Positions 28,584 through 63,891 of a stretch of 64,000 bases of DNA are shown piece by piece (position 1 is the stretch's first letter; each line of letters starts with the position of its first letter). The notes under the pieces are model-generated. The model did not search any database, had not been told where the DNA came from, and saw only the letters and a list, made by a program, of their open reading frames with translations. Both the position numbers and the translations under genes were made by a program. This DNA is from Odontesthes bonariensis (taxonomy: Eukaryota > Chordata > Actinopteri > Atheriniformes > Atherinopsidae). The DNA lies in NCBI RefSeq assembly GCF_027942865.1, contig NC_134509.1:13976017-14040016 (forward strand). The letters run 5' to 3'.

Positions 28584-36977
<8,394 letters not shown>

Positions 36978-50300: not shown

Positions 50301-51551
50301 GTTGCTATGTTTTTCTAAAAGTGAACAAACTACAAATCTTATGTTTTGTTTTATTGTGGGTTATTACGAAGAAACAGTGGAGAATGGGATTAATCATTTA
50401 GCATATAGGGGCAATCATTTATTGTAAACATGTCATTTACGACAGCTAATTATTGTGGAAAAGCAAGTAGGTTATAATGACAACTATAATACGGAATAAT
50501 GATGACATGAAGCGGTATGACATCCCATACTAGCAATATTATTTATGAACATTTTCTTACCCCCTGCTGCGTCCTAGTTTTAGCGTTGATGAAGGTAGTC
50601 CGGCTAGTTGGCTGGGGGCCACAAAAATAAAGCACTTTGCTTCTCAAATTAATATGCGTTCCAAAGAGTAATACATTTGCATCACAAAATCGTTCTCCAG
50701 GAAAAAGTCAGACCTCACAATCGCTTGGCGCTATTTTGTCTCCCTTCGTATCACTCCGTGATTGCCACCTGCCGATGGCCGCACCCAGGGGCGATTTTAG
50801 GATCTGGTCTAAGGGGTGCCCAGCCCCCAGTGCTCACAGAGGCACATTATTTCTCACTAATTGAGGCGAACTAGTACATTTATAAATTTTGGAGCCGTAT
50901 TAGTTTTGCTTTGGGACAGCTCGGTCTGCACGGTCTACATAGCCCGTAGTGATATGAAGGTAGAAAATAGCGGTAAAGCGATTGTGAGGTCTGACTTTTT
51001 CCTGGAGAACGATTTTGTGACGCAAATGTATTACTCTTTTGAACGCATATTGTTATGAGAAGCAAAACGCTTTATTTTTGTGGCCCCAGCCAACTAGCCG
51101 GACTACCTTCATCAATGCCAAAACGAGGCCGGAACTAAGAAAATGTTCATAAATAATATTGCTAGTATGGGATGTCATACAGCTTCATGTCAAAAGAGGC
51201 GAACTATCCCTTTAACATTTGCAGTATCGTTTTGGATGAAAGGACGGCAGATGGTGACTTAAAGAGAAAGGTGAAACTTACGGTGATGCAGAATTAAGAC
51301 AATGCAAATGTTGTTTAAACTCACTTGATGTCCACCAGTATTTCCCGGGGACTTATTTCCGCTCCGCAGAGGAAGCCGCTCCTCAGGTTTACTCTGTACT
51401 GGATGTTGTGGAAGCTCACAGTGGAACCACACGGCTGTTTGTTCTGGACCACGGTTGTCCCAGTCTTTGATCTGGCCAGCCCGTTGGTACTGACGTCTTC
51501 TATCATGGCAATGTTAACATGGCAGGCTCTCTCCATCATCTGGTGAAGCAT
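39245..51551 (-). CDS. abcg2: ABCG2 half-transporter (BCRP-like), complete
   Basis: ABCG2 is a homodimeric ABC exporter of urate, porphyrins and xenobiotics in the plasma membrane. Coding exons: 51325-51551, 49028-49087, 48072-48186, 47411-47563, 47103-47260, 46502-46653, 46242-46343, 45121-45371, 42842-42924, 41672-41761, 41475-41596, 41233-41387, 40396-40485, 39483-39589, 39245-39392. The total is 2013 nt, 670 codons plus stop (human 655). As usual for ABCG, the nucleotide-binding domain comes first: Walker A GPTGGGKSS split by an intron, Q-loop GYVVQDD, signature ISGGERKR, Walker B VLFLDEPTTGLD, H-loop SIHQPRYS. Six membrane segments follow (HQLRWVLQRTFQN, GVNIFLALVVGAIFF, TNQCFSTVSA, SGLLVNL). 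The last extracellular loop keeps three cysteines and an NCT glycosylation site. I chose the Met at 51549-51551 because an acceptor (ACCCTGACAG) lies five bases before it; a Met a few codons on is possible. Fish have several abcg2 paralogues; which one this is was not resolved. Confidence 0.95.
39795..40130 (+). mobile_element. Decayed Tc1-like transposase fragment
   Basis: Several short stretches recall the C-terminal coding end and 3' UTR of fish Tc1/mariner elements. Examples are a GACCAGTCACACCCCTT-like stretch, CAAAGAACACAACAAAGAGCC, GGTGTTGACCTCAAAT, and CAGTATTATGCAGGTGGTCAGAAAGATATGGC, which resembles the usual ATTAGGCAGGTGGTCATAATGTTATG end. The frame is broken and no DDE triad can be followed. 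It lies in the ABCG2 intron between the exons at 40396 and 39589. Assignment is from memory of the family consensus, so only moderate. Confidence 0.45.
42925..45120. other. ABCG2 intron, 2.2 kb, with TA/CA microsatellite
   Basis: The intron between the exons at 45121-45371 and 42842-42924 holds an alternating (TA)n / (CA)n / (TATG) microsatellite at 43039-43111. The rest is non-coding with no clear mobile element. Confidence 0.6.
43039..43111. repeat. (TA)n-(CA)n microsatellite
   Basis: The tract runs TATATATA for about 30 bases, ACATATATATATACACACACACACACG, then TATATGTATATATACAC. It produces artificial Tyr-Ile and Tyr-Val open frames on both strands. Confidence 0.95.
45372..46241. other. 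ABCG2 intron, 0.9 kb
   Basis: AT-rich intron. A stretch at about 45820-46080 with repeated CCCATATGGGTATA, TTTGCCCAA, GAGGTGGGCCC and GCCCCAAGAAGGCCCCAG motifs looks like an old dispersed repeat, but I cannot place it in a family. Confidence 0.35.
47288..47335. repeat. (CA)n microsatellite upstream of an ABCG2 3' splice site
   Basis: About 23-24 CA dinucleotides. On the transcribed (minus) strand this is (TG)n, followed by (TTTTG)3-like sequence, TTTGTTCCCCC and the AG of the exon at 47103-47260. That exon encodes the signature and Walker B motifs. Confidence 0.95.
49251..49700 (-). mobile_element. 5'-truncated L2-like LINE with readable RT C-terminus
   Basis: On the minus strand the element opens with a short frame including AFSCYAANKWNKLPVEIKHS and FKSRLKTFLFSC. 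These are the usual last residues of fish L2/CR1-type reverse transcriptases. A 3' UTR follows, ending GTGCTATATAAATACATTTGACTTGACTTG. The tail sits directly beside a GGGGCTGCAAGGTGGTGCAGTGGTTAGCA fragment on the plus strand (49219-49247), possibly a piece of another repeat. Confidence 0.65.
50502..51215. mobile_element. TTAA-type inverted-repeat element, left end missing
   Basis: The right arm ends GAGGCGAACTATCCCT followed by TTAA (51212-51215). Internal parts of both arms match as inverted copies over roughly 270 bp, for example GTATGACATCCCATACTAGC at the left against GCTAGTATGGGATGTCATAC at the right, and GGTAGTCCGGCTAGTTGGCTG against its complement. The left arm starts inside the repeat at about 50502 and lacks the terminal 20-odd bases. 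A CAGGGGCGATTTTAGGATC segment at about 50786 may be an hAT-type insertion in the left arm. Confidence 0.75.
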
Positions 51552-51556
51552 GCACC

Positions 51557-53699
51557 CTGTCAGGGTAGAAACCAACCGTGATTTGTTTCAGATAAGATCC
51601 GACTTTGTGCTCTCACCACCACTAAACCCAAAAAGGAGGGGCAGGACCTTATTGGAGGCACCGACAGTAGAGCTTTGGAATGGATCCAGAGCAATACAAA
51701 TTATTCTCCACCTAAAATACAGAGAAGAGGACGTACTAAAAAGTGTAAAGACAACAAAAACGCCCTAAAACACATCACAGAATTTAAAAAAAAAAATGCA
51801 CTTGTCTTTTCTCAATTAGTGTGAGATTGCTGTTTAGCATTAATCAAATAGTTTAAAAGATGGGTCGCAACAGTGGAGTAAACTGGCTTTCACAGATATT
51901 TTTGATATCTAATATTTCCCCAATCAGTGATGTTTAAGTAAAATGTGTAATCATTCAGATTTATATAAGGAAACACGGTTTGTTGTGTTGATCTATTTCT
52001 GGTACTACTTCAAACCCACATCAGTATTCATTATTCTCAGGATCACAGTTAAATCAGGGAGAATTCAAAAGAGAGCCTGGTTCATCTTATCATGTTCAAA
52101 TGTAGATTTCCTTTCTCTGTCACGAATGATCCATTAGATTAGTGAACAAAAGTCAGGACAAACAATTGTGGACTTATTTTCCACAGTTACGAGAGCAGAT
52201 CATGACTGGAACGAACATGCTTTCTACAGCAAAACAAGCATCGCTATCACCTCATATGAGTATCAGGGAATAATTCAAAGCACGGATGTTCTCAGCCGCC
52301 GTACAACACAGACTGATGCAGAGCTCTTTAAGGCTGAAGGGTAGTAAACACACTCCTGATTCACACAAACCAGTTTGGATCACTTATTTAAATAGTCATC
52401 AAACGCATCCACAAGTAATCATCTTAATTTCTGCACTGTCAGAGGAAATGGCAGATCAGATCTCATTTTTGTCAAGCGGAGTACAAACTTGGCAAAGTAA
52501 CGAAAAAGGAGGCCAAACTCAAAAAAGAAATCCGGTGTAGTTAAAGGATAAGACCGGTTTTTTGACATTGGGCCCTTGATTTCACATTATAACATGATGT
52601 TCTACTCACCCCTGCTTGTTGTTGGTCATTTGGAGCTGTTCCGAAGATATTCGCGAGGCGTCTGGCTGCTCTCTTGAGATATTCGGCCATGAAACGGTTT
52701 CCTATGGGCAACTTTATACAGGCACAAACTATGCTTTTTATAATTTATTAATTACTGTACACTAGCACTGATAACGTGGAGGTGCGTCGCTTACTTAAAA
52801 AAATCCGGGTTACTAATTTTAGCCGAATGAATAAATAGGCAGCAGGTCTGTGGGCTGTCTGTGGCAGTAGCACGACGAGGACGTCAGTAACACCCACTTT
52901 ACGACAAAAAAAATCAAAATTACAGTAACCCGGATTTTTTTAAGTAAGCGACGCACCTCCACGTTATCAGTGCTAATGTACAGTAATTAATAAATTATAA
53001 ACAGCATAGTTTGTGCCTGTATAAGCTTGCCCATAGGAAACCGTTTCATGGCCGAATATCTCAAGAGAGCAGCCAGACGCCTCTCGAATATCTTCGGAAC
53101 AGCTCCAAATGTTCAACAACAAGCAGGGGTGAGTAGAACATCATGTTATAATGTGAAATCAAGGGCCCAATGTCAAAAAACCGGTCTTATCCTTTAAAAG
53201 GATTCGTCAAACTTTTCAAACGAGATACAGCCACCCTCATTATCCCATGGTTTCACACTGGAAAACGGACATTAAAAAATAACAACAATACATAAAAGGC
53301 ACAGTGTGGACTTAGGAATTACATGAGACATTCACAGGCTCTAGTGTCTTATGTCACTAAAGTGGCTGCGTGTTCATGCAATTTGCATTACTTTGATCAG
53401 AGTTCTTGTTACCACTGAGGACACAGAGGTCTGGCTCTTAAATTTCTGTGCAGATGTGGAAGTTTAAGAAGCATCATTCTCAGAGGCCACTATTCTGTGG
53501 CATCGTGAATATTGCCCCTAATGCTTCTCTTTTTGTGCGTGAAATAAAATTCACACACACATCACCTGACTTGTTTCCTGCATATCCAGACAGAGCATCT
53601 GCACTCTCGCATCAGAGAAATCAAAATACAAAGCAGAAGTTGCCGACATCCTAAGAAAACTATCGCAAAGTAGAGAAAAGCTCAGTTGGAATGACTTAC
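51557..53699. other. ABCG2 first intron, with a TTAA fold-back element
   Basis: The intron between the non-coding first exon and the ATG exon contains the 657-bp TTAA fold-back element at 52541-53197. Outside it I see no coding or repeat signal. Confidence 0.55.
52541..53197. mobile_element. TTAA-flanked fold-back element in ABCG2 intron 1
   Basis: TTAA at 52541-52544 and 53194-53197 bound a sequence whose two ends are long inverted copies: AGGATAAGACCGGTTTTTTG at the left, its complement at the right. The arms run for about 270 bp with few mismatches. The 100-odd-base centre (about 52815-52910) is unique. No transposase is encoded. Termini begin AGG after TTAA, as in the other TTAA elements here. 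Confidence 0.9.
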
Positions 53700-54993: not shown

Positions 54994-55177
54994 GATGTAT
55001 TTAACTCTCTGTGACTTCTACATAAATATTGTAACTTGTGACATTCGCATAGCATGATGGGTTGACAGATCTACACGGTTGGAACTTTTCATATTCGAGG
55101 GTTGAGATTCCCATCATGCTATGCGAATGTCACAAGTTACAATATTTATGTAGAAGTCACAGAGAGTTAAATACATC
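54994..55177. repeat. Inverted repeat directly after the primer site
   Basis: GATGTATTTAACTCTCTGTG and what follows, about 70 bases up to the GATGGG near 55061, recur as an inverted copy ending GAGAGTTAAATACATC at 55177. A central stretch of about 45 bases separates them. The arms look nearly identical. It starts at the last base of the primer site match. It could be a small inserted element or part of the leader. Confidence 0.85.
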
Positions 55178-55201
55178 TTAACACCCGATGCAAGGGTTAA
55201 C

Positions 55202-55428
55202 GTGGAAGATTTCATAAACAAGCACAGGCAGCTCTGTAATTCATACAGACTGAACAGCTCAGAAATGGAAGTCACCTTTAGGAGGTGTCTGACATATGAC
55301 TGGGATCGGGTCAGGGGTGAATTTACAGGGTTAGCTGCTGGTGACCAGGCCCTACTGCCCCATACTGACAATGCACTTACGCAACAGAGAGATGCAGTGT
55401 ATGGCCGCACGAGGGACATATTTATCAA
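55202..55428 (+). pseudogene. gag-like remnant
   Basis: An open frame of about 75 codons contains CNSYRLNSSEMEVTFRRCL, YDWDRVRGEF and NALTQQRDAVYGRTRDIF. The style (Trp-Asp-Arg-Val-Arg-Gly, then a Thr-Gln-Gln-Arg helix) is that of retroviral capsid. Its position just after the primer site also fits gag. It is cut at 55428 by an inserted LINE tail. The rest of gag, the protease and most of the reverse transcriptase are missing. Confidence 0.5.
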
Positions 55429-55640
55429 ATCAAATCAAATTTATCTGTAGCACATTTCATGTACTAAACAATTCAAAGTGCTTTACATTAAATAAAAGGG
55501 AGTGTAAGAAGCATTAAAAATACGTAAAAGAATATCAAATAATTTAAATGAATTTAACACAAGCAACAGTACAGATAAGTTCAAAGATTTCATGCATGAG
55601 AAAAGAAATGTTTTTAGACCAGTATTTAAAAAAATGATCA
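55428..55640 (-). mobile_element. L2-like LINE tail inserted in the provirus
   Basis: On the minus strand it reads the end of a reverse transcriptase frame (LKTFLFSCMKSL) and a 3' UTR ending ...GTGCTACAGATAAATTTGATTTGATTTG. It is the same family as 49251-49700, at its own small deletion state. Confidence 0.65.
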
Positions 55641-55705
55641 AAACAGCAGTAATGTTGCCACGCAGCATAGCCGTATGCAAGTGTGCAGCACACACCCGAG
55701 GTTAA

Positions 55706-55852
55706 GACCCCGTCACTAAAGGAAATGCATTAGCAGACAAAACCGCCAAGGAAGCAGCAACAGGCTTGCATGGGATGCATTTGATGCTCCAAGAGACGAC
55801 ATCAAACCCCCACATTGACCACCAAGTCCTTAAAGAAATGCAAACAAATGCT
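55706..55852 (+). pseudogene. pol remnant: RNase H C-terminal end
   Basis: A short frame reads VTKGNALADKTAKEAA, the conserved last helix of retroviral RNase H (Gly-Asn-x-x-Ala-Asp). It loses similarity soon after about 55852. Nothing of the catalytic part remains upstream. Confidence 0.6.
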
Positions 55853-56246
55853 CCAAATTTTTTTTGCAGAGCATGTCTTATTTGTTGTAAGTGTAGCGTG
55901 GTGCAGAGTGAAGACTGCCTCCACTACACATTTAATTTGTTGTATTTATTTTGTTCTGCAAAGAGCAAAAGTAGGTAAACTTATTTATTACAGTTCGCCA
56001 CACACAGCTTCTTTGACATTCACGTGCGTGTTCTCGTTCTCTAATAACATCAGCACCAACATCAAAACAAATAATTATGTATGTTACATCACTATTCAAA
56101 AACCAGTTTCATCAAGTACATTCAATATCAACTTTTTTCTGAAATACACAGTCAGTCAATCACGCCTCCCAAACATTGTCATATTAACCAAATTAATTAT
56201 TTATTTATTTATTAAACCATGAACTAAACATGAGCAGCGCGGGCTC

Positions 56247-57551
56247 TTAAAGCGACACTCCGGAATTTTCGACATTGGACCTCATTTCCGAGTCAACCAG
56301 AGTGTAAGAAATGTGTACAGATGTTTTTTTTTTTTTTTAAATTCCATGCAGCCCTTGTAAAACCACTGGTCGCTGTTGCTAAGCTAGCGCAAGTGATCCA
56401 CTTTTGGTAGCCTGCCACAAGAAAACAGTCTTGCCCAATTCAATAAACACTCAAAGCACATCAATTGTCTTGCCAGGCTATCGATGCAAATATCTACGTT
56501 GATAGAGAGATTTAGGGAGTAAAACCAACCTTACAATTATATTTTATCACCCGCAGCCATTCTTGCATCCTGGTTTGAAAGTTTGGCAGCCGCGGACTAA
56601 TATCTAGCACCAATCTTACCGGCAATACTTTCACATAACTTCTGATACCCATTCTTACAGCAATTACACAAACCAACAGTAAATCACTATAGCAGGTAAA
56701 TACAAAAGCATAGCAAAGGTTATAGGTAACGTAAGCTAAGTCATCATCACTGAACCATGTGCTACCATCATGAAAGCAGAAAGCCTGTACCAACCTGTTC
56801 TTCAGAGACTGTTTGCACCACAGTGGCTGTCCTTGGTATACCTGGGAAGGCGGATGGCACTGCAGACGGTTTCAGAACTTTCTTTGCGGACTTTCTGGAC
56901 TTTATGAAATCATCGGAGCTGAAGTGATCACTGCAGATGACCCGGATACGCAGCGTCTCCATCGGAGTTTGTACGTCTTATCCTGCAGCTGGGAGCCAGA
57001 GTTTTGTTCTTTCCGGATCTTTTAATGGAAAACAATGAAAACTTTTCGGAAACCATCTATTGGCTCTATTGTTGCAATTAGCAAAGGCACACTGATTTAC
57101 CATGTTGCCACGTTGTTGGTTTATAATCCGCTCGCTGCAAACTCGCTCGATCCAAACGCAACAGATGTAGAACTAGCTTGGAACTAGCAGCTCACAACTG
57201 CCGAGAGTAAGGTAAAATTCCGCTGACCACTAGAAACTAGTCCCTCATATGATAAAAATCCATGTAATGCAAGGTCAGTTTTATTTCAAACATTACTCTA
57301 TCACCACTGACCTTTACATCCACTGCCTGACATAATAATTGATGTGCTTTGAGTGTTTATTGAATTGGGCAAGACTGTTTTTTTGTGGCAGGCTACCAAA
57401 AGTGGATCACTTGCGCTAGCTTAGCAACAGCGACCAGGGCTGCATGGAATTAAAAAACAAACAAACAAAAAAAACATCTGCACACATTTCTTGCACTCTG
57501 GTTGACTCGGAAATGAGGTCCAATGTCGAAAATTCCGAAGTGTCGCTTTAA
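56247..57551. mobile_element. TTAA-flanked element with inverted repeats, carrying a THAP exon
   Basis: TTAA at 56247-56250 and 57548-57551 bound about 1.3 kb. Its ends are inverted copies (AGCGACACTCCGGAATTTTC at the left, the near-complement at the right) with arms of roughly 230-250 bp. The centre, on the minus strand, has a THAP zinc-finger exon (56793-57103) ending at a GT donor. This is not a simple fold-back: it carries gene-like cargo. No second, transposase-coding region was seen. Confidence 0.8.
56793..57103 (-). pseudogene. THAP-domain exon with one in-frame stop
   Basis: Starting at the ATG at 57101-57103, the frame opens MVNQCAFANCNNR, with the C-x4-C pair of a THAP (C2CH) finger. 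It continues with a Trp-Leu stretch, then VICSDHFSSDDFI (the C-x2-H pair with the usual HF) and LKPSAVPSAF (the AVPx-F box). Order and spacing are those of a THAP domain of about 85-90 residues. One TAA stop at 56978-56980 interrupts it, in the segment before the C-x2-H pair. A GTTGGT donor follows EEQ near 56793. THAP domains occur in host DNA-binding proteins and in P-element-like transposases; which source applies is unknown. Confidence 0.75.
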
Positions 57552-58396
57552 GATCAACTTCTATTCCATTTCCTCTCCAGCTTCACGCGCTCGAGGTTGC
57601 TAGGCGACCAACGCTTCCACTGGCCACCCATCCTAAGTACGTTACGTTCGCTGAACAAGTAATGTTCATAAACAAAATCACAAAGTCCAACTGGGATTAT
57701 AAAGTACCACATAAACATTGTCATATTAACCAAATTAATTATGTATCTATTTAAAGTTATTTATTTCTTAAACCATAAACTACACATGAGCAGCGCAGAT
57801 CGACTACTATTCTCCAGCTGAACGGGCGCTCGAGGTTGCTAGGCAACCATCACTAACCACTGGCCAGCCATCCTCAGTACATTACGTTCGCTGAACAAGT
57901 AACGTTTATAAACAAAATCACATTAAGTCCAACCGGGATTATAAAATACCACATAACATATTCACACATCAATTACACCCTTCTAACCCTCCCTTCTTAC
58001 CTGCAAAGAGCAAAAGTAGGTAAACTTATTTATTACAGTTCGCCACACACAGCTTCTTTCACATTCACGTCTGTGTTCTCGTTCGCGGAACGTATTCCCG
58101 CGAGACTTCCTTTGTCCCTGCACACACAGTGTAGCGAACGAGCCCTCTGCTGGTAGGGGTTAGACACTGCATCCCGATTGATTGATGACAATATTTTACA
58201 CTAAATAATAACAACAATAAACTAATCTCCTATCTAATCAGAAAACACCCAGACTATTTTCACCACCCTGAACATGAGCTGTCCAAAATGGGAAATCAAA
58301 TTAACTATCAATAATAATCACTTAGGTGTATTAACGCACTGATGGCTCTGTATGCCACACTAGCACAATGCTCAGGGCAATGTAAGACCTAAACGT

Positions 58397-59214
58397 GGTC
58401 AGTTCCCGCAAGCTCAACACCCATTTCAATATCTACATATGGACTTTATCGAATTGAACAAATGCCAGAACTACAAGTATTGCCTTGTCCTGATATGCCC
58501 TTTTTCTAAATGGGTTGAAATAGTTCTGAGCAAACATGCGGACGCTTTGACAGTAGCTAAGGCACTCTGTAAGTCCATAGTACCTCAATATGGCATTCCT
58601 GAGAAACTGTATAGTGATAATGGCACCCACTTTGTCAATGATGTTGTGTCCAGGATGGCACAGCATTTGGGAATGACATTAAAAAAAATCATTGTTCTTA
58701 CCACCCACAAAGTGCTGGGCTGGTGGAAAGAACAAATGGGACAATCAAACAAAGACTCAGGAAAACAATGGAGCAAACGGGGAAAGCATGGCCAGACTGT
58801 TTAGACCTAGTCAAGCTGTACATGCGAATCACACCCACAGGGAATGGTTTAACTCCATTTGAAATAGTCCAAGGCAGACCCTTTCGATTACCTGTGTTTG
58901 CAGCAGACGACAATAAAGCAGTAGAAGAGACCACACTGGCAGAATGGATGTGCAAAATGTTGCAAGAGAAATAAATTGTGAGTGCAAATGATCTGCCGAA
59001 TGCTGTTATTTCTCCACAGAAACGACATGCCAAACCAGGAGATTGGGTCCTGATAAAAGTCATAAAGCGGAAGTGTTGGTCAAGTCCACGCTGGGAAGGC
59101 CCGTTCCAGGTCCTGCTGTCGACTCCCACAGCAGTGAAAATCGCTGAAAGGTCAACGTGGATACATCTCAGCCACTGCAAGACGGTAACACATTTCCCAG
59201 CTGACAACGAGTAG
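58397..59214 (+). pseudogene. pol remnant: integrase core and C-terminal domain, broken
   Basis: The core has the three catalytic acidic positions in context: MDFIEL (Asp), SDNGTHF (Asp) and LVERTNGTIK (Glu). The last is reached only by a frame change at the A run near 58680-58688. An in-frame TAA (58972-58974) precedes the C-terminal part, which carries a GPF module ([16 protein letters not shown]) and a WIHLSHCK end typical of class I-like integrases. The HHCC zinc domain before 58397 is not intact. It ends just before env. Confidence 0.85.
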
Positions 59215-59274
59215 TGGTGGAAGTCTGGCTACAAAGGGCAGTGTGATACATAGCTCACACTAGGTCTCAAACCA

Positions 59275-59517
59275 GTGAAGAAAACAACTGATCCACACTC
59301 ATTTAGAATGGCGGGAAAACTCTGTCTGGTGGTTACAGGACTGTTTTTAGGTGTATCCCTAAGGCTGTGGACATGGTCAGGAGCAGGAGGGCTGCAGCGA
59401 TCACGACGATGGACATACCATACCAACCATGACTGGATTCCTGAGGACCCTAAACACCCAATAGACACTATGTGGTACTCTTATGCGCGAGTGTTAACTC
59501 GCACTTACAACAGATAG
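59275..59517 (+). pseudogene. env N-terminal part with signal peptide, ends at frame break
   Basis: The frame carries a hydrophobic leader from the Met at 59308 (MAGKLCLVVTGLFLGVSLRL) and stops at a TAG at 59515-59517. The main env frame continues from 59519 in another frame, so a small indel near 59515 separates leader and body. Confidence 0.7.
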
Positions 59518-59518
59518 C

Positions 59519-60562
59519 GTGGGTTATCAACATTCAAGTATCAAAATTGATGACACTGTCTCCCACGCAGTGGGACTACGAAATGGCATAAATGACACCA
59601 TGTTCTGGATAAATTACAACTACACCATCAAAGGGGAACTAAGACCACAGAAAGTGTTTATGAATTTAACTGGAAAACATGCCATGTGTTATTGTCAAGA
59701 GAATGGTTCAGTCCCTGTAGGTAGTCTTAATATGACTGCTGACTGTGATCAAACGATGGTGAGTGGAGAAGGGGCTCCAGTAAAAATAAATGCAAATTCA
59801 AACGGCACTTATTTGGTGCAAGGTGGATGGTGGTTGTGTGGACGAGATGCATATCTGATGCTGCCAGCCAATTGGACGGGCGTGTGTGCGCCCATATTCG
59901 TGACTGACCATACAATTATAATCAATGCAATTCCAGGTCAACTAAAGATGGGTGCGAGAAGAAAAAGAGATATTCCCGAGTTCAAACCACATGATGCAGT
60001 CTGGGGCTCAGATGTCCCTGATGAACACAAACATTGGTCAACCGGCAACAAAGTCTTGCTTTCTGTCTTTCCCTGGCTGGGAGTGGGCAAGAATGTGCTC
60101 CATTTGGAAACCATAGACTATAGACTTGGAGCTTTCATTAATCTTACATCAATAGTGCATGAAGGTCAAAACAGAGAAATAAATGCTTTGCGGACAATGG
60201 TTCTTCAGAACAGAATGGTGATGATAAATACTTCATGTTGTACCTACATTCCGGACGAAATCGTAACTAATGTATCCGTAGCTATGCAAGGCCTACGTAA
60301 CCTTCAAAAGGCCATAGGTCAAGACAATAATGCTAAAGGTCTCGACTTGATGTCCTGGCTGACTTCAGGACCATGGTGGCACATCCTAATGCGAATTGCA
60401 ATACCTATTCTCTGTGTCATGTTTCTGCTTTGCCTATTCACAATGTGCATTATTCCTTGTCTTAAATCAATGATTAACAATATGATGGCAGGAATGTTTT
60501 CTAACTATGTCTTACTTGTCCAACATGACCCAGAGGAGCTCAGCAAGGATGCTACAGTCTAA
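59519..60562 (+). pseudogene. env body: SU end, furin-type site, TM with anchor (347 codons open)
   Basis: This retroviral envelope glycoprotein body is open for 347 codons. It has several N-glycosylation sites (NDT, NYT, NLT, NGS, NMT, NGT, NWT). A conserved surface-unit C-terminal motif GGWWLCGRDAYLMLPANW precedes a cleavage site RRKR at 59957-59968. The transmembrane unit has heptad-like helices, a Cys-Cys pair after LQNRMVM and a hydrophobic anchor (about 60375-60460, ILMRIAIPILCVMFLLCLF) with a short cytoplasmic tail. Its start here is a GTG after the upstream frame break, so no leader is joined to it. Class I-like by layout. Confidence 0.8.
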
Positions 60563-60700: not shown

Positions 60701-60955
60701 TTATCTGCCGCTTGTCCGGGGATCGGGTCGCGGGGGCAGCAGCCTAAGCAGAGAAACCCAGACGTCCCTGTCCCCGGCCACTTCCTCCAGCTCTTCTGGG
60801 GGGACCCCGAGGCGTTCCCAGGTCAGCCGAGAGACATAGTCTCTCCAACGTGTCCTGGGTCTTCCCCGGGGTCTCCTCCCAGTGGGACGGGCCCGGAACA
60901 CCTCACCAGGGAGGTGTCCAGGAGGCATTCTCACCAGATGCCCGAGCCACCTCAT
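60701..60955 (-). pseudogene. LINE reverse transcriptase C-terminal end, shifted frame
   Basis: The frame carries RWLGHLVRMPPGHLPGEVFR and a RPRGRPRTRWRDYVSRL stretch, the usual last part of this LINE group's protein. It ends near the GGAT-type tail. It is out of frame with the main RT body. Confidence 0.8.
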
Positions 60956-62480
60956 CTGACTCCTCGATGCGGAGGAGCAGCGGTTCTACTCCGAGCCCCT
61001 CCCGGATGACCGAGCTTCTCACCCTATCTCTAAGGGAGAGCCCAGACACCCTGCGGTGGAAACTCATTTCGGCTGCTTGTATTCGCGATCTCGTTCTTTC
61101 GGTCACTACCCACAGCTCGTGACCATAGGTGAGGGTAAGAACATAGACTGACCAGTAAATCGAGAGCTTCGCCTTCTGGCTCAGCTCCTTCTTCACCACG
61201 ACGGGCCGGTGCAGATCCCGCATCACTGCAGACGCCGCACCGATCCGCCTGTCAATCTCCTGCTCCATTCGTCCCTCACTCGCGAACAAGACCCCGAGAT
61301 ACTTGAACTCCTCCACTTGGGGAAGGATCTCATTCCCGACCCGGAGAGAGCATTCCACCCTTTTCCGGCTGAGGACCATGGTCTCAGATTTGGAGGTGCT
61401 GATTCTCATCCCAGCCGCTTCACACTCGGCAGCGAACCGCTCCAGTGAGAGCTGGAGGTCACGGCCCGACGACGCCAACAGAACCGCATCGTCCGCAAAA
61501 AGCAGAGACCCGATTCTGAGGTCGCCAAAACGGACCCCCTCAACGCCCTGGCTGCGCCTAGAAATTCTGTCCATAAAAATTATGAACAGAATCGGTGACA
61601 AAGGGCAGCCCTGACGGAGTCCAACCCTCACAGGAAACATGTCCGACTTACTGCCAGCAATGCGGACCAAACTCTGACACCGGTCATACAGAGACCGAAC
61701 AGCCCATATCAAGGAGTCCGGCACTCCATACTCCCGGAGCACCCCCCACAAGAGTCCCCGAGGGACACGGTCGAACGCCTTCTCCAAGTCCACAAAACAC
61801 ATGTAGACCAGTTGGGCGAACTCCCATGCACCCTCCAGGATCCTGCCGAGGGTATAGAGCTGGTCCACTGTTCCACGGCCAGGACGAAAACCACACTGCA
61901 CCTCCTGAATCCGAGATTCGACTATCCGGCGGATCCTCCTCTCCAGTACCCCCGAATAGACCTTGCCAGGGAGGCTGAGGAGTGTGATCCCCCTATAGTT
62001 GGAACACACCCTCCGGTCCCCCTTTTTAAAGAGGGGGACCACCACCCCGATCTGCCAGTCCAGACGCACTGCCCCCGATGTCCACGCGATGCTACAGAGG
62101 CGTGTCAACCAATACAGCCCTACAACATCCAGAGCCTTGAGGAACTCAGGGCGGACCTCATCCACCCCCGGGTCCTTGCCACCGAGGAGTTTTTTAACCA
62201 CCTCGGCAACCTCAGCCCCAGAAATGGGAGGCCCCACGTCCGAGCTCCCCAACTCTGCTTCCTTATCGGAAGGCGTGTCGGTAGGATTGAGGAGGCCCTC
62301 GAAGTACTCCCCCCACCGACTCACGACGTCCCCAGTTGAGGTCAGTAGAGCCCCGCCCTCACCATACACGGTGTTGACGGTGCACCGCTTCCCCCCCCCC
62401 TGAGCCGCCGGATGGTGGACCAGAATCTCTTCGAGGCCATCCGGAAGTCGTTCTCCATGGCCTCCCCGAACTCCTCCCAA
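60903..62480 (-). pseudogene. LINE reverse transcriptase frame
   Basis: The 525-codon frame contains the RT motifs in order: FRPGRGTVDQLYTL, VYMCFVDLEKAFDRVP, GLRQGCPLSPILFIIFMD, and the catalytic FADD in SLLFADDAVLLASS. A thumb-like region (LGVLFASEGRMEQEIDRRIG) follows. It runs into its own stop at 60903. The normal C-terminal end (RWLGHLVRMPPGHLPGEVF, LTWERLGVPPEELEEVA) continues in another frame at 60701-60955, so an indel near 60950 truncates it. Confidence 0.9.
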
Positions 62481-63391
62481 GCCCGAGTTTTTGCCTCAGC
62501 AACCGCCGAGGCCGCGTTCCGCTTGGCCTGTCGGTACCCATCAGCTGCTTCCAGAGTCCCACTGGCCAAAAAGGCCCGATAGGACTCCTTCTTCAGCTTG
62601 ACGGCTTCCCTCACCACTGGGGTCCACCTGCGGGTTTGGGGGTTGCCGCCACGACAGGCACCGACGACCTTACGGCCACAGCTCCGGTCGGCCGCCTCAA
62701 CAATGGAGGCACGGAACCTGGCCCATTCGGGCTCAATGTCCCCCACCTCCCCCGAGACATGGCTGAAGCTCTGCCAGAGGTGGGAGTTGAAACTCCTCCT
62801 TACAGGGGATTCCGCCAGCCGTTCCCAACAGACCCTCACAATACGTTTGGGCCTGCCAGGTCTGACCGGCTTCCTCCCCCACCAGCGGAGCCAACTCACC
62901 ACCAGGTGGTGATCAGTTGACAGCGCCGCCCCTCTCTTCACCCGAGTGTCCAGGACATGCGGCCGCAAGTCCGACGATACAACCACAAAGTCGATCATCG
63001 AGCTGCGGCCTAGGGTGTCCTGGTGCCAAGTGCACATATGGACACCCTTATGCCTGAACATGGTGTTCGTTATGGACAGTCCGTGACGAGCACAGAAGTC
63101 CAACAACAAAACACCACTATGATTCAGATCGGGGGGGCCGTTCCTCCCAATCACGCCCCTCCAGGTCTCACTGTCATTGCCCACGTGAGCATTGAAGTCC
63201 CCCAGCAGGACGAGGGAGTCTCCCGGAGGAGCACTCTCCAGTGCCTCCTCCAGGGACTCCAAAAAGGTTGGGTACTCTGAACTGCTGTTCGGTGCATAAG
63301 CACAAACAACAGTCAGGACCCGTCCCCCCACCCTAAGGCGGAGGGAGGCTACCCTCTCGTCTCGTCGGTAAACCCCAATGTACAGGCGCAC
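62342..63391 (-). pseudogene. LINE APE endonuclease frame
   Basis: The 349-codon frame has the endonuclease motifs [26 protein letters not shown] and [11 protein letters not shown], with the Asp and His of APE-like nucleases. The linker runs to the G run at 62391-62401 (minus strand), where the frame changes into the RT. The first endonuclease motifs ([30 protein letters not shown]) are in another frame at 63349-63891, so a second indel lies near 63370. Confidence 0.85.
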
Positions 63392-63891
63392 AGCTGGGGG
63401 GCAATAAGTATGCCCACACCTGCTCTACGCCTCTCACCGCGGGCAACTCCAGAGTGGAAGAGAGTCCAACCCCTCTCGAGGAGGCTGGTTCCGGAGCCCA
63501 AGCCATGCGTCGAGGTGAGTCCGACTATATCTAGCCGGAACCGCTCAGCCTCGCGCACCAGCTCAGGCTCCTTCCCCAGCAGAGAGGTGACGTTCCACGT
63601 CCCAAGAGCCAGCATCAGTAGCCGAGGATCAGACCGCCAAGGTCTCTGCCTTCGGCTGCCGCCCAGCTCACAAAGCGCCCAGCTCACAAAGCACCCGACC
63701 CCCATGGCCCCTCCCACGGGTGGTGAGCCCGTCAGAAGGGGGACCCGTGTAATTTCTTCGGGCTGTGCCCGACCGAGCCCCACGCGCACAGACCCGGCCA
63801 CCAGGCGCTTGCCGGCGGGCCCCACCCCTGGGCCTGGCTCCAGGAGGAGGCCCCGGTAACCCACGTCCGGGCGAAGGTACACGTTCTCCAA
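63349..63891 (-). pseudogene. LINE N-terminal part with first endonuclease motifs
   Basis: The frame contains LALGTWNVTSLLGKEPELV, LDIVGLTSTHGLG and [13 protein letters not shown], the N-terminal strands of the APE endonuclease including the Asn near its active site. A GC-rich leader-like stretch precedes it. It is shifted against the next frame near 63370. Confidence 0.8.

Follow-up and report, generated by a model that had tools for sequence, protein, structure and literature searches.

Introduction

Kolobok elements are cut-and-paste DNA transposons that target TTAA, and their transposases usually have DDE, THAP and H2CH motifs together with an AVPTIF-type box (PMC6004289). The superfamily goes back to Kapitonov and Jurka (2007, as cited in PMC6004289 and PMC9587614). 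In Xenopus, ten full-length Kolobok copies had AG ends and nine had TTAA on both sides (PMC6004289), and THAP is listed for Kolobok-1_XT and Kolobok-2_BF (PMC2203978). Ends of the form 5'-RR/YY-3' set Kolobok apart from piggyBac in the account of PMC9587614, in whose main text the word THAP does not occur. The transposons of fish include Kolobok (PMC6817897), and fusions of host proteins with transposases are mentioned in PMC8700633.

Here we describe an element of Odontesthes bonariensis that combines TTAA flanks with a THAP exon. We read it from one copy, at positions 56247-57551 (1.3 kb, TTAA included at both ends) of the 64,000-nucleotide stretch of contig NC_134509.1 that we analyzed, hereafter the window, and from its neighbors, protein records and published papers. 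A first-pass annotation of this DNA knew of no described family with both TTAA and THAP; Kolobok is such a family, with TTAA duplications, RR/YY termini and usually THAP (PMC9587614, PMC6004289). We conclude that the element is probably a nonautonomous, internally deleted Kolobok-type transposon, of the cut-and-paste class, that keeps exon 1 of its transposase; because the transposase core is missing from the single copy, we call it Kolobok-type and regard its membership as provisional.

Results

At its left edge the element has the sequence gggctc-TTAA-AGCGACACT, and at its right edge, on the + strand, AGTGTCGCT-TTAA-gatcaa, with the two target-site copies of TTAA at 56247-56250 and 57548-57551 (no strand assigned). 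Inside the TTAA, the left end starts AGCGACACTCCGG and the right end, read inward, starts AGCGACACTTCGG; the termini are AG...CT, that is RR/YY, in agreement with the Kolobok rule of 5'-RR and YY-3'. One Xenopus Kolobok subfamily begins AGCGATTCT (PMC6004289), compared with AGCGACACT here. The flanks have only TTAA in common, and none of the flank repeats of 2, 3 or 5-10 bp match. TTAA on both flanks agrees with the 4-bp target site of Kolobok, as seen in a single copy whose neighboring duplicate has no TTAA; TTAA is palindromic, so that in one copy the target and the end of the arm read alike.

The terminal inverted repeats are long. By arm alignment, the left arm occupies 56251-56535 (+ strand) and the right arm 57268-57547 (- strand), or 56247-56535 against 57268-57551 with TTAA counted in. 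We tallied arm identity in 40-column steps of the alignment: in the outer 200 columns 175 of 181 ungapped positions are identical (19 gap columns excluded, TTAA counted in), and in the following 120 columns 84 of 109 (11 gap columns excluded); over the whole arm blastn gives 83.4% identity across 296 columns. Judged from this alignment, a well-kept outer part of ~200-220 bp grades into an inner part that is older or less constrained. Provided they were alike at insertion, the outer arms have since diverged by ~3%, an amount suggestive of a fairly young copy.

To place these arms against background we scanned the window, which holds 422 TTAA sites, for inverted 24-mers bounded by TTAA, allowing up to five mismatches. 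The scan returned nine rows, against none in each of five first-order Markov controls. Four of the nine are nested in two larger elements, one is an A/T run, and one (55001-55170) has arms that extend beyond the TTAA; the other three are separate complete elements, at 36255-36715, 52541-53197 and 56247-57551, all of which begin TTAA-AG.

The two other complete elements differ in their likeness to the THAP element. The 657-bp element at 52541-53197 is bounded by TTAA, has AGGATAAGACCGG termini and arms 97% complementary over 274 nt, and has TTAAAG and a TTTT-GACATTGG stretch in common with the THAP element. With the first six bases removed, the scores of the four arm pairs were reached by 16, 30, 68 and 50 of 1000 shuffles, so that kinship between the two is weak and only suggestive. 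The element at 36255-36715 is a 461-bp near-perfect foldback with TTAA at both ends, AG...CT termini and arms 99% complementary over 182 nt; past the first bases it has no likeness to the THAP element (643 to 986 of 1000 shuffles reach the score).

The window holds further repeats and candidate mobile sequences. A long inverted-repeat element at ~50503-51215 is missing its left terminus; its surviving right end reads inward TTAA-AGGGATAGTTCGCC and, in the same direction, ends with TTAAAGGGATAGTTCGCCTCTTTTGACAT, a stretch absent from the left end. At 54994-55177 a perfect 68-nt inverted repeat, its arms 48 nt apart, has TTAA within the arms and is therefore not a TTAA-edged element. To the right of the THAP element, ORFs at 58364-60559 (+ strand) resemble, by eye, retroviral or retrotransposon integrase and envelope, and long ORFs at 60906-63424 (- strand) resemble, also by eye, LINE reverse transcriptase and endonuclease.

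The element lies within, and splits, a copy of a duplicated stretch. Within 55956-58084 duplicated pieces lie ~240 bp apart, and 55956-56039 is repeated at 58001-58084 with 96% identity; Tandem Repeats Finder at its threshold reported no array in 55000-59000, though the duplicated pieces are plain by comparison. Pieces adjoining the element are spaced by 237-242 bases, and pieces on either side of it are 1542 and 1556 apart, which becomes ~241 and ~255 when the 1301-base insertion is subtracted. A second, uninterrupted copy at 57713-57960 (+ strand), delimited by alignment to the joined flanks, permits a near-empty-site comparison: joined over one TTAA, the flanks match the copy from 57713 at 215 of 234 ungapped columns, with 44 gap columns. 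At the insertion point a 9-nt gap covers the TTAA, which the neighboring duplicate does not have, so the alignment shows that the flanks belong together and not, in itself, a single TTAA.

Between the arms lies a THAP exon on the minus strand (56795-57103), running for 103 codons, stop included, from the ATG at 57103-57101 to the CAG before a splice donor, and identified by Pfam, by the structure 2ko0 and by a match to the fish protein P0001 described below. The two pieces before and after an in-frame stop score 24.3 and 26.8 bits with the Pfam THAP model PF05485, against a cut-off of 23.9; the human THAP1 structure 2ko0 aligns with exon residues 1-87 (E 2.9e-11), and a human THAP2 structure matches the exon at E 1.7e-5. 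Counted by hand in the translation, C5, C10, P26, W36, C57, H60, F61 and the AVPSAF box are kept, with C5, C10, C57 and H60 as the zinc ligands. The stop is a TAA at codon 42 (56978-56980, minus strand, from the translation), so this copy is no longer able to make the whole THAP piece. The first-pass annotation had described TTAA-bounded long inverted repeats around a THAP exon with a start codon, both zinc-ligand pairs, an AVP box, a GT donor and one disabling stop, and all of this stands; it had left the strand of the exon unstated.

The splice donor (CAG/GT, with the GT at 56794-56793 on the minus strand) is placed by P0001, whose similarity to the element stops exactly here. We had also considered a donor right after AVPSAFP and dropped it because P0001 runs on in frame to the donor at 56794. 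From the donor to the left arm (56536-56792, minus strand) there is no further match to P0001 and no long ORF, and this stretch is probably a remnant of the intron, with the deletion joint in it or beyond it. On its position, the stretch from the right arm to the ATG (57104-57267, minus strand) is the probable promoter and 5' untranslated region. The longest stop-to-stop frame within the element is 119 aa, as expected for a deletion derivative.

Protein relatives were sought with the 103 exon residues by a method that requires five-residue words in common and, at this query length, covers subjects of ~57-180 aa; the query alone returned three candidates, none at E <= 0.001. Padding the query with X letters admitted subjects of ~264-840 aa and returned 19 candidates, two of them at E <= 10: P0001, a 338-aa protein of Odontesthes bonariensis itself, and frog THAP4. 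The exon matches residues 1-103 of P0001, which is one isoform of its gene, PAE49_011020, at 96 of 103 positions, and the similarity ends exactly at the donor; the remainder of P0001 has no match in the window below E 4. After the exon junction P0001 continues with a stretch rich in cysteine and histidine (by eye) and then a BESS motif.

This second part of P0001, the zinc/BESS module, is common to 44 listed proteins, whose named sources are all fish. In 37 of the 44, including isoform 3 of the Odontesthes gene, merely 5-33 residues, most often 8, stand ahead of the shared module. The other seven are P0001, P0015, P0026, P0041, P0043, P0044 and P0045. P0015, from Nothobranchius, has a THAP that is 29% identical to the element exon and meets the module where the THAP of P0001 does; P0041, also from Nothobranchius, has a weak partial THAP below the Pfam cut-off. 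P0043, from Labrus, carries HTH_Tnp_Tc5, a Tc5-type transposase helix-turn-helix, and shares the module solely from its residue 44 onward, with the joint further in, while P0045, which bears a THAP, has just the final part of the module. P0044 is partial, and P0026 has a longer start with no other Pfam match at 0.01. Different transposon-like DNA-binding N-termini, with THAP of at least two kinds and one HTH_Tnp_Tc5, are thus found in P0001, P0015, P0041, P0043 and P0045.

Discussion

The element agrees with Kolobok, including the Xenopus XKol elements, in TTAA duplication and AG (RR) termini, and its exon encodes a THAP with an AVP box, though this copy does not contain the transposase to which the exon would belong; nonautonomous relatives, the T2 MITEs, are presumed members of the superfamily (PMC6004289). 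The element differs in having no catalytic core, arms of ~285 bp and a THAP exon that ends in a splice donor. Support for the Kolobok-type reading comes from the TTAA flanks, the AG...CT termini, the THAP known from Kolobok, the continuity of the flanks in the duplicate, the further TTAA-AG elements in the window, and our finding no conserved host THAP gene with this exon among the subject lengths searched. Against it, this copy has no visible transposase sequence, neither of the two protein searches (subject lengths ~57-180 and 264-840 aa) returned a transposase with a related THAP, the one protein closely related to the exon is no transposase, and the matches ranking after it are THAP proteins of host type (frog THAP4 at 43%, and the human THAP1 and THAP2 structures). 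The palindromic TTAA of a single copy, its absence from the neighboring duplicate, the lack of an array reported by Tandem Repeats Finder and the weak or missing likeness of the arms to those of the 52541 and 36255 elements also count against it.

Pattern searches in sequence collections gave no relatives. The terminal inverted repeat pattern had no matches in viral_contigs and none in genome_contigs, viral and prokaryote collections unsuited to a fish element. A looser pattern picked out 16 viral stretches, which scored 18-27 against the arm trimmed of its first six bases; shuffled arms averaged 20-27, about the same, and we therefore take these stretches as chance. A scan of viral contigs with a protein pattern gave two matches, neither a relative.

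The first-pass annotation had offered two alternatives, of which a deletion derivative of a THAP-bearing TTAA transposon fits best; capture of a host first exon is disfavored. A TTAA element could have taken up the first exon of a host THAP-zinc-BESS gene by transduplication and carried it as cargo, and P0001 has just such an exon, from the same species, with 96 of 103 residues identical and the boundary exactly at the donor. This origin is nonetheless unlikely. Among the 44 listed proteins the exon occurs in P0001 alone, one isoform of its gene; 37 of the 44, isoform 3 of that gene included, begin instead with a short leader, and P0015 from Nothobranchius bears another THAP, at 29% identity. 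Kolobok moreover already accounts for THAP with TTAA (PMC6004289). In these counts each 90% cluster is represented by one protein, and names like 'isoform X2' (for example P0004, from Leuresthes) hint at unlisted isoforms.

Membership in other superfamilies is much less probable. A nonautonomous piggyBac-superfamily element with an acquired THAP exon would have TTAA on both sides, as seen here, but piggyBac transposases are not known to carry THAP. The TTAA duplication is common to both, but the termini differ: RR/YY ends are the stated contrast of Kolobok to piggyBac (PMC9587614), so that non-RR/YY ends would be expected where the element has AG...CT, and on these termini we reject piggyBac membership as very improbable. 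A P-superfamily origin has the THAP exon in its favor, P elements being THAP-bearing as well, and is if anything less probable still. P elements make target-site duplications of ~8 bp; the element has 4-bp TTAA and its flanks have no 7- or 8-bp repeats, and we reject this membership on target-site length. An undescribed TTAA superfamily with THAP, separate from Kolobok, would sit with the lack of any visible catalytic core in this copy, but it is just as improbable, all testable features of the termini and target site fitting Kolobok.

For the Kolobok-type element, the termini, arms, flanking TTAA, THAP exon, stop and donor lead us to infer the following history. Its ancestor would have carried a transposase gene on the minus strand, with the THAP DNA-binding domain as the first coding exon. 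An internal deletion would then have removed every later exon, and the catalytic core with them, so that exon 1 with its donor and the two long arms stayed behind. Mobilization would be in trans: a full-length relative would supply the transposase to bind the arms, excise the element and insert it at TTAA, with duplication of the TTAA.

The relation of the element to P0001 has an apparent direction. Because 37 of the 44 module proteins begin with a short leader, this type of start looks like the ancestral one and the P0001 THAP like an addition. Our five-residue-word searches (subjects of ~57-180 and 264-840 aa) turned up no conserved host THAP gene bearing the element exon, which among the proteins found was present in one isoform of one species. 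Together these observations favor transfer of the exon from transposon to host over capture of a host exon by the transposon, on the basis of gene models, one representative per 90% cluster, among which 'isoform X2' names imply unlisted isoforms.

We tentatively suggest, at somewhat less than even confidence, that a copy of the element beside a fish zinc/BESS gene provides an alternative first exon, whereby the host protein gains the DNA-binding domain of a transposon and could be steered to copies of the element across the genome. This resembles the host-transposase fusions of PMC8700633 in that, to judge from the Odontesthes isoform, a DNA-binding exon of a transposon would be joined by splicing to a host gene; it differs in that the fused copy is known from one gene model, outside the window. 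In the literature searched we found no paper joining THAP, BESS, fish and transposon, and none on the subject for THAP and Odontesthes. The differing N-termini of P0015, P0043 and P0045 raise the further prospect that the zinc/BESS gene may be a repeated acceptor.

In itself the element is ordinary, since Kolobok already combines TTAA with THAP. What makes it valuable is its role as a source, for it gives the transposon context of an exon and splice donor already used by a fish gene model. A young transfer of an exon from transposon to host, and an acceptor gene that is possibly recurrent, thereby become open to direct testing in available genomes and RNA reads.
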